Below are positions 11,335-58,099 of a stretch of DNA of 64,000 nucleotides, in pieces. How positions within the stretch are numbered: the first letter of the stretch is position 1; every line of letters starts with the position of its first letter. The position numbers were made by a program, and so were the translations under genes. The notes beneath the pieces were generated by a model that saw only the letters and a program-made list of their open reading frames with translations, did not search any database and was not told where the DNA came from. This DNA comes from Branchiostoma floridae. Its lineage: Eukaryota > Chordata > Leptocardii > Amphioxiformes > Branchiostomatidae. The stretch is taken from NCBI RefSeq assembly GCF_000003815.2, contig NC_049980.1, positions 27,820,273-27,884,272 on the forward strand, written 5' to 3'.

Positions 11335-11500
11335 TTAGCCAACAATGATGCCATTCGGCATGTCCATATCCAGGACCATCGTCCCGTCTCTAGGTGACAG
11401 GTAGTGGGACTTGACGGCAATCGACTGGCCTTCATCTTTGTTGGTTGATACGCCAGTCGAGGAAGACAAGCTGATGCCAGCGGTGACATGCCTCGTTGGC
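11335..11500 (-). pseudogene. Relic of the last GH10 exon (C-terminal domain)
   Basis: Read on the minus strand this starts with GCCAACGAGGCA after an AG acceptor and ends with codons for MPNGIIVG and a TAA at 11337-11335. That matches the last exon of GH10-a (33407-33162, ending MPNDIIVG), but it is 166 nt against 246 nt: about 80 nt are deleted in the middle, removing the FHGNY region, and the frame is shifted with a stop after the DWRINQQR-like stretch. Homology continues into the 3' flank, which ends 3' of IF-b just as GH10-a ends 3' of IF-e. It also continues upstream to about 11745, where repeat DNA begins. No other GH10 exon was seen nearby. This is a dead remnant of a duplicated GH10 gene. 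Confidence 0.85.
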
Positions 11501-45700: not shown

Positions 45701-48700
45701 GTTGCTCATCGATTTAATATTTTCAGTCACTGTTCTGTAGAAATTCCGATTTAAGTACAGTAACGCAGCCTGCTTTGCAGGTAGCCCAAACCAAGTCTCA
45801 CTTTGCTTTCGGCTCTGCCGTGAACGCCACAGCGCTGGAGACCAGCGGCCATTACAGGGACTTCTTCTTCAACAACTTCGAGTGGGCCGTCATAGAGAAT
45901 GGTCTGAAATGGCAGCAGACTGATCCGTACCCGTTTGTGGTGAGGTTTGATTATGATATCGTACAACGGACATATGGGTTGTACCACTTAGCACAACGGG
46001 AAGGGCTATGGGACAATAAAGAGTAATTTGTTCCGCTCAAAGAATCTTTTTGCTGTCTATTTTAATCAATTCTTATGCTCTTACACATTGGTTCTTTAGA
46101 GATGAATAATAAAACTCCTCCGGTACTAAGAAGAGAAATAATAATATTCGTATTCCTTGTTTCAGTTTCATAGTTGGCCTGACACTGCCATCAAAATGTT
46201 GGAGAGTCAGGGGTTTGTTGGCACATTATTATATTCATTATGCTCTTTGATAGAAAACATTCAATGATTTCTTTTTTAAATGACATTGAAATTAAGTAGA
46301 ACATTAAGCTGTCTAATTTCAGCCTGTATATTTTTCAGCGTACCTATACGTGGTCACTGTATTTTCTGGGCGAAGCCCGAACACGTGCCAAAGTGGCTAG
46401 GTTGGGTAGACTGGATCTGGGATGGCGTCGTTACACACATGTGCCGGCAAAGGGTTGACGACGTCGTGGGCCGTTATGCTGAAAGGTAAATGGTGTATCT
46501 GCCATTCACATTTGGAACAATCTGATATGTTTTCACTAGAGTTCTTATCATTTTAACTATTTTCTACTAGAAGGTGATCAGTGAGCGCTGTGCAGTGAGC
46601 AAATTGGATTTGTGTGATCCATGAGTTTATGGTTGTAGTATGATCTAAGATCTGTCTCTGTACATTCTGTGTCTATAGCTACTCGCATATAGCCGGTATA
46701 ACCGCCCGTAAGCGCAGCGCACCAGCTTCGCAGGTATGCAGACGGTGCAGCAGCAGCTGGTTATATTGCACTGAACGACCTGTCACAGCTAACTTTAGCA
46801 CATCTATCTAAGAGTGTTCTTTAATATTGTAAAAGATAAAAGCACACAAAGCGTTAAACAGCTCTATCTATGAAATTCAATCATTGAGCAATCTGCCAAC
46901 GAAATCTTTGTTCACTTGGCGGTCTCTCAGCGATCGCAGGCCCTAGAAGTGGAAAACGGTGTTACACCGGGTTCACACGTGGTATATTTTTAAGTCCGTA
47001 TAATATAAGGTCCGCATCACATTATTAGCCTCTAACAGGCTCCACTGGTTTTGAGCGACGTGTGGAGTCTAGCAGAGGCTAAGACTCCCATACGGAACTC
47101 ATACGGGCTTGAAATATATACTCACGTGTGAACCCACCTTTACTTACGGCTACTGCTCCAGTGTATGTCTGTTGGAACTAATGTACAAAACGTTAGCCAT
47201 GTTACGTACGGTTATAAAGACGTCGATTCTTGCGCTTCGGCTCAGGTTGGCGCACTGGGACGTGAACAACGAGATGCTGCATGCCAGCTACTTCATAGAC
47301 AGGACAGGGGGTCTGCAGATCCGGTACGACATGTTCCGGTGGGCGCAGGAGAAGGACCAGAACGTTAAACTGTTCCTTAACGACTACAACGTCATCAGCT
47401 CTAGCCAAGCGACCCAGGTAGTCAGCTAACGCTACCGTCACAATTGTGCCCGTGCAAGTCCGATGTAAAACTAAACATTTGTTCCAGTGGACTGCCGGAT
47501 ATCGCAAAGCTACGTATACCTCTCAGTGCTTTCACGATTATATCAAGGCGTCTATTTATTGCGGGACAAAATATAGCCCGGTAGCCGCATGTTGCTCTAC
47601 GAGGCCAAATAGGGATCTGGCCCGAAAGTAAGACAAAACAGTCCGTGAACTACCCGGCGGGGCCCCTTTTTCCAGCTGTGACCGACCGATACGTGCTACT
47701 TGAGCATGTTAGATGTTGAATTCCAATTGTGCTATTAATAACAATTAAGTCCCATAGTTAGATTATGCATTTAGCACTATTGACATGCTGTAGTCAAGTC
47801 AAAATCTGTTCACAACAGGTAGCTTTGCAGTGGCATAAACATAAAGGCAGTAATAAAGAAATGTCTTTTATTTTACTGTATTGCATTGTATTGTATAATT
47901 TGATAGTTTCCAAATCATAGCTGTTTCTTGTTTACCCTAACACAGGCTTATGTAGACCAGATCTCTGAGTTCCTCGCTAACGGGGCGCCGGTTGGTGGTA
48001 TTGGTGTGCAGGGTCACTTCAAAAGTCGTCCTGACCCTGTTCTGATCAAGGTATGTAACAAAAGGGAGTACCTGCTTTCACAATATGTATTTCAAAATGC
48101 TTGTAACATGTTGTCTCTCATAACACATTAACACATTGCATTCTTGGTGACTCTTCCTCCTGTAGAGTCGCCTAGATCTCCTTGCCTCCTCCGGGCTTCC
48201 TATCTGGGTGACAGAACTGGATTTTACTGAACCCAACGAGTTTGAGAAGGCCGACGGGTACGAGGACGCCATGCGGGCTGCATTCAGCCACCCTGCCGTG
48301 GAGGGACTCCTCATCTGGGGGTTCTGGGACCAGGCGCATTGGAGACCAGACGCTGCGCTTGTGAACGGCGACAACTTTCAAGTAAGGATTTATGCCCATT
48401 CCACTAGACGGCGATCGAGCTGCGACCTCACTGCGACCTGAATTAGATTTGTGTAATCCTTGATTTCATAGTTGGAATATTATACAATATGTCGAAGAGA
48501 GAGAGAGACTGTTAAGACAATAAACACACTAAACGTAAACTATTCTCTCTTTTATTTATCTGTGAAATTTGTGGGGCGTCAAAATTTCGGTCGCAGCGCT
48601 TCTGTGGTGAGGTCTTCACGCTAGGTGGAAATGGCGTGTTAGCGTACGTAGAGTGCATCTTTCTGAACGTGCACTCATAACGTAGAGTGCATGATAAGCT

Positions 48701-52900: not shown

Positions 52901-55900
52901 AATAAAAATGTATCCCATGACCCTTTCTGTTCTGTATCATATAGGACTGCAGAATGGGCGGGTCCATCTCAGGACCTAGCCTGGGGGTCCGCCATTAAGA
53001 GCGGATATACCTATATGTTCACCATGTGGGTCAAGGTGCTGGATGGTGGAAGCACGACCTATAATGTCATGGCCAAGCTGAATATTGGATTTAAAGGTAT
53101 ACAATCACTCACTGTTTTCATGAAATGCATTGCATATGCGATTGCATGCGTTTTCTTGAAGTACATTTGTTTGTTTGTTTGTTTGTTTGCTTGTTCAATT
53201 TTTTCATGGGTGTTTGCTTGTCATTGGGCCTCGAGCAGAGTTTCATCTTGAAGCTTGGCTACTCACACTGATAACATTGACCGCAAATAGAAGACTTGGT
53301 AAATTATTTGAAGCTTGACAACTCCCCTTGAAGGCAGTCCTAAAATGACATTACAGGTGTGTATCAAACACTCTAAATGATGTTGATCAATTTCTGTTCT
53401 CAGACGGAACACAGAGTTGGTTGAACATAGTTTCCTCAGCAGTTTCGGCTGCGGACGGCTGGACCAGACTTTCCGCTGGGTACACCGTGGATGGTAGGTA
53501 TATCAATATTCTAAGTTGTAGTGCGACTGGTTATATCACTTAGAGATATGGAGTTCTTCCTATTCTATCTCGTGACAGAATAGTACGGGCCATGACCTAA
53601 TGATCATCATCCATGCTTATTTGCAACCTTTTCGGTCCCATTATTTCAGGCATTCACGTACGCGCAATAGGGACAAAACGGGACAACGAGAAAGAGAAGT
53701 AACGAGAGACGGAAGAGAGTGAAAAGACAGAGACACACACAGAAAATCTAAAACAACACACCACTTACCCTAATATGTGGAGTATATACATACGGAATTT
53801 TATGGCAGCAAAGGGTGGTCTATGACAACAATTACTTTATCATTTTTTCCAGATTACGGAGACACCGTGAGTAGTGTGCGGCTGTACGCGGAAGGCCCTC
53901 CGGCTGACGTACGCTTCCTCATCGATGACGTGTCCCTCCTGTCGTTCATGGACGTGTCGCAAGGCGACTGGAAGTCCGAGGCGAACACAAGGATCGAGCA
54001 ATTACGCAAACGATACGTCACGCTCAGGTCAGTACATTGTAACTGCGATACGGCATGAAGCTCCTGAAATATCCATTACATGTTTTATTTAGCCAGAGTG
54101 GTCCGTCTTCATGACATGGCACTGTTTGTCAGCTGTTGTACGGATTGACTTAAAGTTGCTGCAGCTAAACAGACTGACTTAAACTCGAGTGGGGAGATCT
54201 ACGTATAGAATTGTGATGAATGACACTATTGTAAGGTTCAGATTGTATTGTAATTGTATTTCTAGTGTTAGAGGCTTTGATTCAGGCGGATTTTAAATGA
54301 AATACAGCAACATGTGCAAAATCAAGCATTCTTTTTCGTGTAAAATTGCAGGGTGCAGACTCCAAACGCACAAGGCATAAGTGTGGAGGTATGTGTTTAG
54401 AAACGGTATTCTTTTCAAATGCTCGATAATACGATCTCTCTTGTTTAGTTTTTGTCCTACATCTGATTTAAAAGAGCAGATTTTCTGCGAAATAGTCGAC
54501 TACTAGTACTATTGGGTGCTCGACTATCCAAATAAAAGAATATATTATGATGTCACAGATCGTAACCTTTTGATAATTGAAGAAACAGATATATGTTTCA
54601 CCTCACAGATCTCCCAAACGAAGTCTCACTTCGCCTTTGGCTCGGCTGTCAATGCCTGGAGAATGCCTTCCGACAGTCGGTACGCAAACTTCTTCTTCGA
54701 CAACTTCGAGTGGGCCGTTCTGGAGAGCAACCTCAAATGGAAGCAAAACGAGCCTCAAGAAGTAAGTTAGTCTCCAATCACCTTCTGTTCACAGCTGCAT
54801 TATGTTACAGATCGCGCAAACCAAATCCCACTTCGCCTTTGGCTCGGCGGTAAACGCCTGGCAAATGCCGTCCAACGGCGGGTACGCGGACTTCTTCTTC
54901 GACAACTTCGAGTGGGCCGTGCTTAAAGCTAACCACAAATGGCAGCAGAATGAGCCTCAGGAAGTAAGTTGGTGCTTAAAATAGATGTAAAAGTTTGATA
55001 AAGATAATTGGTGATCTAAATGCCGGGAGTCATACATGTGTGATTGTTGTTTTTCAGGGTCAGCTGGAATGGACACGTGCTGACCGGACAATGCAGATGC
55101 TGGAGAGTCGTGGGTAAGAAGTAAATCAAAATGTAGATTTTGTTTGCTTGATCATCAAGATTTGTTAATTCACGAAAAGGTCACAGGCCGTTCTTCAATG
55201 ATGTCAGCAGAGAGGAGATTAGTGTGAAACAAAACTGACAAAGATATGTCAAAAAATGATATGTCCCTAGTACTTACACATGCTTGGTACCACACAGACA
55301 CACACCAGAGTGAAAATTAGCGTATGGTGCTTGACCGTTCGTTCTGTTTATATTTGTGATACTGTGTGGGTCCCTTAAGAGGTCGTGCGTCTGTCTCATT
55401 GTAGACTGTTGTAAAATTTGTGAACACGGTATACAGTAGCTTATAGATCTTTTCTCGCATTTCAGAGTCTCCATCCGCGGCCACTGCGTGTTCTGGGCGG
55501 TGCCGGATTACGTGCCGGACTGGCTGAAAGGCTACTCCGCGGCTGAGGTAGAGCAGAAGTGCTGGAAGAGAGTGGACGACGTCGTGGGGCGATATGCCGG
55601 AAGGTACACGTCTTTACCACTCCTTGATGTATTCATTTTAGCAGTGCATCACATTGTAGCTTTAAAAATCAGACTTAACGCTTTACATGTCCAACTCCTA
55701 TACAGTATTGAACTACGAAAACACAAACACAAAATGTAAACCTTTTTCTGCCGTGACATCAATCGTGTAGCACTTTATTACACTTAAGTCAAATCACTAT
55801 CAAGCCCAGTTAACGATAGGAAATCATCCATTTGTTCTTAAGTTAAGTAACACTTTTGTTATCAAATATATGTTTTAGTTATTTTTAACCCTGGAGGATT

Positions 55901-58099
55901 ATTCTTGGCTTAAGAGAATCTCAATAAACACAACAATCACAAACATGGCAACATAGCCTTGTTAGACATTGAACTGTTCAATCGATCAAGGGTATTGGAA
56001 ATAATTTGCTACTAGTATCTATCATTTTCGTTCCCTTCGTGTACAATTTTCTTGATTTTCAAACTTCGTTTTACAAGCTACGATGCTGCCATGAACTGTT
56101 AAGGTACAAACACTTGGTACCTTTGCCGTTTCTGTCCATCTGTCAGGTTGGCTCACTGGGACGTCAACAACGAGATGCTGCACGGAAGTTTCTTCAGGGA
56201 CAAGACTGGCAGCTCCCAGATCCGGTACGAGATGTTCCGGAAAGTGAAGGAGAAGGACCCAAGCGCTAAACTCTTCCTCAACGACTACAACGTCGTCACT
56301 GGTTATTGGTCAACTCGGGTAAGTTTTACTGCTGTTACAAGAGGATATTGTGTTGTTTCCCATCATTTCTTTGCGTAGAATATATACTTATATCTTATTA
56401 TAGTTTGGGTTAAATACCTGGCTGTTCAGTCCAGTTGTTCAGTCCATGTTGAAAGGTAGTGGATGCCATCCTGAATAGCTTCAAAACTTTATACAGTTTT
56501 ACTGCTAATTCTTACCTCACGTATCTTATTAGCTGGATGTCTAACCTAGCCTGGGTACCATCCGATTTCTACCGGGGCACCTTACACTCGCTTCCCTAAA
56601 GAACTAGGGTAGCGAGTGTAAGGAGCCCCGGGAGAAATCGGATGGCACCCAGGCTAACCTTCATCAAAGCCTTACATGTAAATCTTTCAACTCTTTTTAC
56701 ATATCATTGATATGTCGTTTATCTTCCATCTCGGGTGATAGGATTATGCCAACCAGATTACAGAGTTTATCAACAATGGAGCGCCGGTGGAGGGAGTCGG
56801 TGCCCAAGGACACTTCGGCGGCCGCCCTAACCCCACTAACGTTCTGGTAGGTCTAATTCCGGTCAAAATAATGACACTCATGTTTCCTTATTCACAATGT
56901 CAAAGCTATCCCGTTTCGTTTTCGTTCCTACCTCAGGCATCATAAAACATTACATTTCACCCTCTGCAGTCTAAGCTGTTGCATCCCGGTTTTGAAATAA
57001 ATTTATCCTTATTTTCCTCCCTGAGATATAACTTGACTTTCATCCAATTACTTCAATTGAATCTAGGTTTGAAAAGGATTGGGAAAGAGAACTACTTTTG
57101 AATGAAATGTGACGTTTTGTCTAGCACTGCCTCAACACGCTGTCCTCCCGTGGCCTCCCCGTCTGGATAACCGAGCTGGATATAAACGAGCCTGACGAGT
57201 ACGTTAGAGCGGACGGGTACGAGGACAGTCTGACGGCCTTCTTCAGTCACCCGGGGGTGGAGGGGGTTCTGCTGTGGGGGTTCTGGGACCAGTCCCACTG
57301 GAAACCTGACGCTGCACTGGTGAATGGAGACAGTTTTCAGGTACTTGTTTTTTTTTTCACTGGCATCGGAATTACTTTCACAAATGTTTAACCTCTAAGC
57401 AGATCTTCTGATGGCAGAAACGCGATATAGCAAAGCTGGTATCCATAATGCCACCGATGGCAGTATGGACACTGTTTGTGTCTATACAGTGTCTCTACCA
57501 TAAGAAGATCTGCTTCGAGATTAATCAATGTGTTCTTAAAGTATCGTTAGCTATAATAAGAAAAGTATAAGAACTAAAAACCGCTAAAAGTAAAGAAAAT
57601 GACTGTAACATTTTTGTTGAGCCCCAAAGGTTTTTTGGACTGAGAAAAAGATTAAATGAGATGAAATAAGATGAAGGGCCGTCATTTCGTAATAATTCTT
57701 TGTAACTGCACATTGTCTAACTTCGCCAGTCCATGCTTCATGCTCAACTCTTGTTAATTACTGCATCTGTACAGAGGCAACTAAGGTAGAATACTAAGGT
57801 AAAAGCCAAACAATATACCAGAATAATCATAAACCCGTGTACGTACCTTGCAGATCAACGAGGCCGGTCGCCGTTGGCAGCGGCTCGTCTTCCACGACTG
57901 GCGCACCAACCTGTCCCTCACGGACGGCATCGTGACGCCAGAAGGCAAGGAGTTCATCTTCCGTGGTTTCCATGGCAACTACGAGGTCACAGTCAAGAAC
58001 CATGGCCAGGTCGTGGCCACGAAGACGTTCTACTTGTCCCCAGGAGCCGGCTCCTTGACTGTGGATGTGGACATGCCGAATGACATCATTGTTGGCTGA
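49955..58099 (+). CDS. GH10-c: secreted GH10 glycoside hydrolase with two CBMs and a duplicated exon
   Basis: Exons: 49955-50151, 51018-51169, 51513-51605, 51968-52074, 52470-52606, 52945-53096, 53404-53493, 53853-54027, 54352-54388, 54609-54761 (10a), 54811-54963 (10b), 55058-55113, 55466-55603, 56147-56318, 56742-56846, 57125-57340, 57854-58099. With one copy of exon 10 the product has 741 residues, with both 792; both keep the frame. Signal peptide VALFLCCWLHDVGA, CBM-1 (EIFRNAGFEGAFGADNWYC), CBM-2 (EMVTNPGLEGDLSGWYC, LDGGSTTYNVMAKL), then GH10 with SHFAFGSAVNA, RGHCVFWAV, HWDVNNEML (acid/base Glu), LFLNDYN, GAQGHF, ITELDI (nucleophile Glu), LLWGFWD, and a FHGNYEVTV C-terminal domain ending MPNDIIVG. 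AATAAA at 58178. Expected to be secreted; substrate specificity not determinable. Confidence 0.9.
54609..54761 (+). other. GH10-c exon 10a (first of a tandem exon pair)
   Basis: 153 nt, 51 codons, phase 0 at both ends, acceptor CACAG and donor GTAAGT. Codes ISQTKSHFAFGSAVNAWRMP through WAVLESNLKWKQNEPQE, the first strand and helix of the GH10 barrel. Keeps the Glu and Lys of the E-N-x-x-K-W substrate-binding motif, with Ser in place of Asn. Confidence 0.9.
54811..54963 (+). other. GH10-c exon 10b (second of a tandem exon pair)
   Basis: 153 nt, phase 0 at both ends, acceptor TACAG and donor GTAAGT, only 49 nt after exon 10a. Codes IAQTKSHFAFGSAVNAWQMP through WAVLKANHKWQQNEPQE. The Glu of the E-N-x-x-K-W motif is Lys and the Asn is Ala. 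Flanking junctions are intact, so it is not simply a decayed copy. Confidence 0.9.

Follow-up and report, generated by a model that had tools for sequence, protein, structure and literature searches.

On the basis of genomic sequence alone, we suggest that a tandem exon duplication in GH10-c, a glycoside hydrolase family 10 (GH10) gene of Branchiostoma floridae, is probably spliced as a mutually exclusive pair. Such use is favoured by the combination of the exon architecture, the constraint that acts on both copies and the single structural slot that the encoded unit would fill. The window (that is, the whole stretch of 64,000 nucleotides analysed here) corresponds to NC_049980.1 (C2) 27820273-27884272, and the genome searched comprises 513,431,437 bases in 431 contigs. 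GH10-c lies on the + strand, and its catalytic part was read from ten exons that include the two copies (A and B), the last of them with the stop codon. The features concerned, in window positions unless C2 is given, are as follows.

53853..54027, + strand, coding exon of GH10-c for the linker that leads into the catalytic domain
54352..54388, + strand, 37-nt GH10-c exon before the duplicated pair, ending in phase 0 and followed by GTATGT
54609..54761, + strand, exon copy A, 153 nt, with ESNLKW at 54723-54740
54762..54810, + strand, 49-nt intron between A and B
54811..54963, + strand, exon copy B, 153 nt, with KANHKW at 54925-54942
55058..55113, + strand, GH10-c common exon 3' of the pair
55466..55603, + strand, GH10-c common exon with RGHCVFW
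56147..56318, + strand, GH10-c common exon with HWDVNNEM
56742..56846, + strand, GH10-c common exon with GAQGHF
57125..57340, + strand, GH10-c common exon with ITELDI
57854..58099, + strand, last exon of GH10-c with the stop codon
36026..36178, - strand, single homologous exon of the paralog GH10-a
45781..45927, + strand, single homologous exon of the paralog GH10-b, matched part
C2 27896563, outside the window, single homologous exon of GH10-d
C2 27676981-27677136, outside the window, single homologous exon of the distant gene z

A tandemly duplicated exon in one GH10 gene

GH10-c is assigned to family 10 by a Pfam GH10 match over the barrel together with the motifs HWDVNNEM and ITELDI, which we take to carry the acid/base and the nucleophile glutamate, respectively. 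The match scores 176.2 bits with A and 170.7 bits with B (cut-off, 22.1), and the domain thus reads intact with either copy; with A and B together it reaches 178.7 bits, slightly above either alone, through one stretch only. Weak CBM_4_9 matches in reading frames upstream of GH10-c (19.9 and 18.8 bits) stay below the cut-off of 25.9.

The original prediction, which described two 153-nt phase-0 exons with intact AG and GTAAGT sites around a 49-nt intron, is borne out at 54609-54761 and 54811-54963. A and B are neighbouring, homologous internal exons, each preceded by AG (tcacag and ttacag, respectively) and directly followed by GTAAGT. Their nucleotide identity is 81%, with 29 of 153 positions differing (9 at first, 3 at second and 17 at third codon positions), and 41 of the 51 encoded residues are identical, leaving 10 that differ. 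When the 513-Mb genome is searched at the protein level, exon A retrieves B at E = 2.5e-23, a likeness far beyond chance. The similarity is confined to the exon and a few flanking bases (54605-54771 versus 54807-54973), extending four bases beyond the 5' end and about ten beyond the 3' end. As 153 is divisible by three, all four combinations (A, B, A+B and neither) are in frame; the frame therefore removes no messages with both copies or with neither, and enforcement of exclusivity by frame shift and nonsense-mediated decay is ruled out. The possibility of a single long exon in which the 49-nt insert is coding was likewise rejected, since the read-through soon meets a stop and its length is 1 mod 3.

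The same search across the whole genome (E <= 1) places exon A in at least six locations, all on C2, which are A and B themselves and a single place in each of GH10-d, GH10-a, GH10-b and gene z. Two copies are thus found in GH10-c only and a single copy in the four other GH10 genes seen, which upholds what had been proposed for GH10-a and GH10-b and extends it to GH10-d and z. Taken with spliced alignments of the GH10-c protein, the search indicates that, of the genes seen, GH10-c alone carries the duplication. These alignments placed eight introns in each of the five GH10 genes at matching places, except that GH10-a and GH10-b have the intron that follows this exon aligned four codons further on; the last exon of GH10-a is misaligned, and its last intron is not to be trusted. 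A search of the flanking introns of GH10-d for a relic of a second copy gave only 8-9-nt matches. As a separate observation, the GH10-a exon copy (~36025, - strand) ends before gcaagt, and a GC-AG intron is possible there.

Constraint on both copies

Between A and B, dS is 1.24 and dN is 0.10 (ratio, 0.08; Nei-Gojobori), corresponding to 17.5 synonymous and 11.5 amino-acid changes, and the ratio ranges from 0.08 to 0.24 over the ten pairs among A, B, GH10-a, GH10-b and GH10-d. About 0.6 (0.61) of synonymous sites differ between the copies, and the reading frame, AG and GTAAGT of B are intact. In simulations, two copies of A were allowed to diverge, one at a ratio of 0.08 and the other more freely, and runs with 15-20 synonymous changes were kept. 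When the freer copy evolved neutrally, none of 552 runs had so few amino-acid changes and 80% contained a stop; purifying selection thus acts on both copies. As few amino-acid changes arose in ~1% of 509 runs when the freer copy evolved at a ratio of 0.5, in 14% of 531 at 0.3, in 34% of 508 at 0.2 and in 66% of 520 at 0.1. Judging from these comparisons, neither copy has been free of constraint for long, and mild relaxation is compatible with the data.

Among 26 residues that are invariant in GH10-a, GH10-b and GH10-d, 24 are kept in A, which departs at residues 27 and 40, and 23 in B, which departs at residues 39, 40 and 42. Such retention of the barrel core would be expected if each copy builds the barrel in its own product. 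A tree with A and B as sisters has the best likelihood under all three models, and none of the three topologies is rejected (with 5,000 replicates, which the program reports as too few for the AU test). The synonymous divergence between GH10-c and GH10-d in exons 3-7 (pS 0.46-0.68) overlaps that between A and B (0.61).

The exon encodes a barrel unit that covers the ENxxKW region

To place the exon in a structure, we used a model of a bacterial relative (L026; alignment of 25 sequences from the 45 loci; mean pLDDT 91.3) and the invariant residues Q49, F54, G57, N85, K88 and W89, from which we infer that the exon corresponds to about residues 47-96. In the model this segment starts inside strand 44-48; the elements that follow are a strand (56-60), two helices (63-66 and 68-77), another strand (80-83) and a helical turn (89-92), and the segment finishes in the loop that precedes helix 102-113. 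In this bacterial relative, the exon boundary is thus embedded in a strand on the 5' side and lies in a loop on the 3' side. As modelled, the unit is the end of the preceding strand followed by beta1, alpha1 and beta2 (that is, the first beta-alpha-beta of the barrel), and the original prediction of a first strand and helix was correct as far as it went, having omitted the end of the preceding strand and beta2. The accompanying proposal, that inclusion of both exons would add an extra unit, is partly supported, in that the model suggests one barrel slot for the unit.

The 45 bacterial loci were found with the patterns HWDVNNE and QTK[SA]HF[AP][FW], the latter being exon positions 3-10, and 44 of them cover the exon (L070 falls short). 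These relatives (L026-L070; 35-46% identity) come from Paenibacillus, Bacillus, Acetivibrio, Acidobacteria, Planctomycetes and others; among viral contigs, 153 pattern matches included no relative. Of these 44 bacterial sequences, 37 have Glu at exon position 39 (6 have Gly and 1 has Thr), 43 have Asn at position 40, 43 have Lys at position 43 and all have Trp at position 44. The paralogs read ENDLKW (GH10-a), ENGLKW (GH10-b), ENNLKW (GH10-d) and GNKMKW (z). Neither copy in GH10-c has the full ENxxKW, A (ESNLKW) lacking the Asn and B (KANHKW) both the Glu and the Asn. ENxxKW is typical of GH10 and no requirement for membership. The E-N-x-x-K positions presumably bind the sugar at subsite -2 (glycone) in GH10 xylanases. 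The GH10-c motif aligns to these positions in 1e0w/1e0v, and the closest solved structure by sequence, a bacterial GH10 xylanase (7d88/7d89/9rhv; E = 1e-88), aligns over the N-terminal strand region and the barrel and reads ENEAKW at the motif (ESNLKW in A, KANHKW in B).

Four of the ten differences between A and B fall within or adjoining this motif (residues 39-45; p = 0.02 for that stretch), a clustering that is statistically weak, some 7-residue window holding four differences in 38% of random draws. Nine of the ten lie in residues 18-27 and 39-45 (0.00015, for regions picked post hoc). The expectation that the two copies would differ where the active site begins to bind substrate holds for the ENxxKW region. 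Both copies depart from the family motif, B further than A, and both keep the barrel core; the departure more likely reflects a change in glycone binding than decay, with weak activity as an alternative.

Splicing signals around the pair

Splice sites were scored with a matrix built from 35 paralog introns, 5 of 40 having been left out (doubtful ones of GH10-a and GH10-b, and the two flanking the pair in GH10-c). A and B share the same donor sequence (GAA|GTAAGT; 7.6 bits), the upstream donor scores 11.0 bits, and the acceptors score 8.6 bits (A) and 7.2 bits (B). An internal AG (54793-54794), 16 nt upstream of the acceptor of B, scores 4.3 bits, and its use would shift the frame. The scores of all three acceptor sites fall between the extremes of the reference set of 35 (0.1-12.4 bits), and the internal AG is thus not dismissable by score alone. 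The best branch-point match within the 49-nt intron, on weights made by hand from a consensus, is TTCAC; its A, at 54791, is separated from the donor by 30 nt and from the acceptor of B by 19 nt. The branch point of B could also sit in exon A. This candidate lies 3 nt from the internal AG, a proximity that could explain why that AG would be passed over.

None of the scored paralog introns is as short as the 49-nt intron: the 35 range from 115 to 1157 nt (z = -3.6 for the log length of 49 nt), and the intron after B measures 94 nt. In P450 genes, 24 intron estimates are all at least 102 nt and the raw gaps at least 93, for pairs hand-picked from 118 matches after leaving out neighbours whose profile positions do not join. 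According to a survey of human mutually exclusive exons, the steric limit between donor and branch point is ~50 nt and 57 potential steric cases (9%) occur among 629 clusters (PMC5740500). Any branch point of B within the 49-nt intron would necessarily fall short of that limit, as the match at 30 nt does. The survey also gives an exon end inside secondary structure as a structural sign of such exons (PMC5740500), and the model places the 5' end of the GH10-c exon within a strand. As for very short introns, another human study describes a 56-nt intron with a donor-branch site distance of 27 nt that is spliced with SPF45, and the analysis of 43-nt and 49-nt introns (PMC8363638). The proposal that the short intron bars the joining of A to B thus keeps its basis, in that 49 nt is the shortest length measured, and loses its force as proof, the splicing of the human 56-nt intron making the length suggestive only; we regard exclusivity arising from the 49-nt length as likely, not certain. 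Pairing of the docking-site/selector type gave no signal in seven duplex comparisons of the introns (32-87% of shuffles were as strong), and this RNA mechanism was set aside, none of the comparisons going beyond shuffles.

Proposed model and competing explanations

In the model that we favour, 49 nt would leave too little room for simultaneous use of A's donor and B's branch point, and this crowding would make the mRNA take A or B, with a catalytic domain that is complete in either case. A would probably be the default, lying nearer to the upstream donor and having a slightly better acceptor, and B would be included where A is skipped. The two isoforms would have common catalytic residues and a common barrel core and would differ in the beta1-alpha1 loop and in ENxxKW after beta2. 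Counting against this reading are the in-frame state of all combinations, the weaker acceptor of B and the slightly higher Pfam score with both copies.

It is rather unlikely, in our assessment, that A and B are always included together, with the extra 51-residue unit packing outside the barrel or replacing the normal one. Such double inclusion would accord with constraint on both copies and with a preserved frame, and very short human introns can be spliced (PMC8363638). However, a surplus copy should relax, whereas 24 (A) and 23 (B) of the 26 paralog-invariant residues persist; four other GH10 genes manage with one copy; and 49 nt is less than half the smallest comparison intron, the 94-nt intron of the same gene excepted. 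Moreover, in 42 of the 45 bacterial loci the match spans the domain (from query position 8 or before up to 314-316) within 921-984 nt, which leaves no room for a doubled unit inside.

Use of one copy only, with B rarely spliced or dying (or the reverse), is also unlikely: although the acceptor of B is weaker than that of A (7.2 versus 8.6 bits) with a competing AG upstream, and the most conserved motif of the family is altered in B (E to K and N to A), a neutral B is rejected by the simulations (0 of 552 runs). B has also kept its frame and its AG and GTAAGT while ~0.6 of synonymous sites came to differ, a state that a recent end of constraint would still be compatible with. Lancelets are highly polymorphic, and two alleles placed in tandem, through an assembly error or a recent haplotype artefact, might be suspected; we consider this very improbable and effectively refuted by the 19% nucleotide difference, with synonymous divergence near saturation, and by the lack of any additional copy of either exon in a protein search of the assembly. 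The spacer of 49 nt is also unique, and the similarity is limited to the exon and a few flanking bases.

If A and B are indeed alternatives, their difference at the motif of the -2 glycone subsite should give the products a different substrate preference or strength. We tentatively raise the possibility, which we hold to be less than even, that one gene here makes two glycosidases with different -2 subsites, as a substrate switch that needs no second gene. In that scenario, A (Glu-Ser) might be near the ancestral state and B might have changed by charge reversal and loss of Asn (Lys-Ala) and by Leu to His. The substrates could conceivably be, for example, neutral versus acidic or sulphated algal polysaccharides, a suggestion that we likewise put forward with some doubt.

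Relation to known systems

In the muscle structural proteins alpha-tropomyosin and alpha-actinin, exclusivity has been shown experimentally, and among enzymes PKM has mutually exclusive or tandem alternative exons. In CYP4F3, the choice between the homologous exons 3 and 4 reportedly alters substrate preference, on RNA and enzyme assays; its P450 fold differs from that of GH10-c. The nearest parallel is OGDH, an enzyme with neighbouring alternative exons (4a/4b), a short intron and a branch point less than ~50 nt away, in which branch points 25-41 nt from the donor enforce exclusivity (PMC7969005). OGDH differs in having RNA and lariat mapping and a ~65-nt pyrimidine tract (PMC7969005), whereas the branch point of GH10-c is a prediction only and its intron is shorter. 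The OGDH study also cites alpha-tropomyosin and alpha-actinin as cases in which donor and branch point are too close (cited within PMC7969005), as proposed here. PGM1/PGM5 is similar in being an enzyme family in which the tandem pair persists in one paralog while one of its exons has been lost from the other, and differs in protein family and in having annotated isoforms (PMC9741552). The original prediction thus went too far in presenting the pair as a novel route to the diversification of a digestive enzyme, in view of OGDH (PMC7969005) and PGM1 (PMC9741552). Mutually exclusive tandem exons in enzymes are already known; what is new is the instance in a GH10 glycosidase and the swap at a substrate-binding motif.

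Among the papers searched, we found none joining amphioxus, GH10 and glycoside hydrolase, no lancelet intron-size survey, no usable account of the -2 subsite residues and, in passages of one paper on mutually exclusive exons and glycoside hydrolases, no such enzyme case. If the model is correct, GH10-c would be a barrel enzyme with a splice-swappable glycone subsite, and A and B would form a natural pair for asking how a handful of residues determines GH10 specificity. The pair would also provide a compact test of steric exon exclusion beyond vertebrates.

Other GH10 sequences on C2

Several further observations concern GH10-c and its surroundings. One of its introns contains an inverted repeat (56547-56656) that is MITE-like, with 52-nt arms that are 92% complementary and a 6-nt spacer. 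The protein of the last exon is 96% identical between GH10-c (57854-58099) and GH10-d (C2 27899126 onward), with a dS of 0.20, compared with 0.7-1.8 in the middle exons and 0.33 and 0.49 in the two first exons compared; given the contrast with the middle exons, the last exon looks like a case of gene conversion. Fragments resembling the last GH10 exon are present in the window at ~11338-11497 (- strand) and near C2 27696648, 27717599, 27774502, 27793312 and 27804950, the one at 27717599 with a stop, and these are probably relics of a larger GH10 cluster. Just past the window, a partial GH10 gene (C2 27889844-27891627) matches only from the acid/base exon onward.
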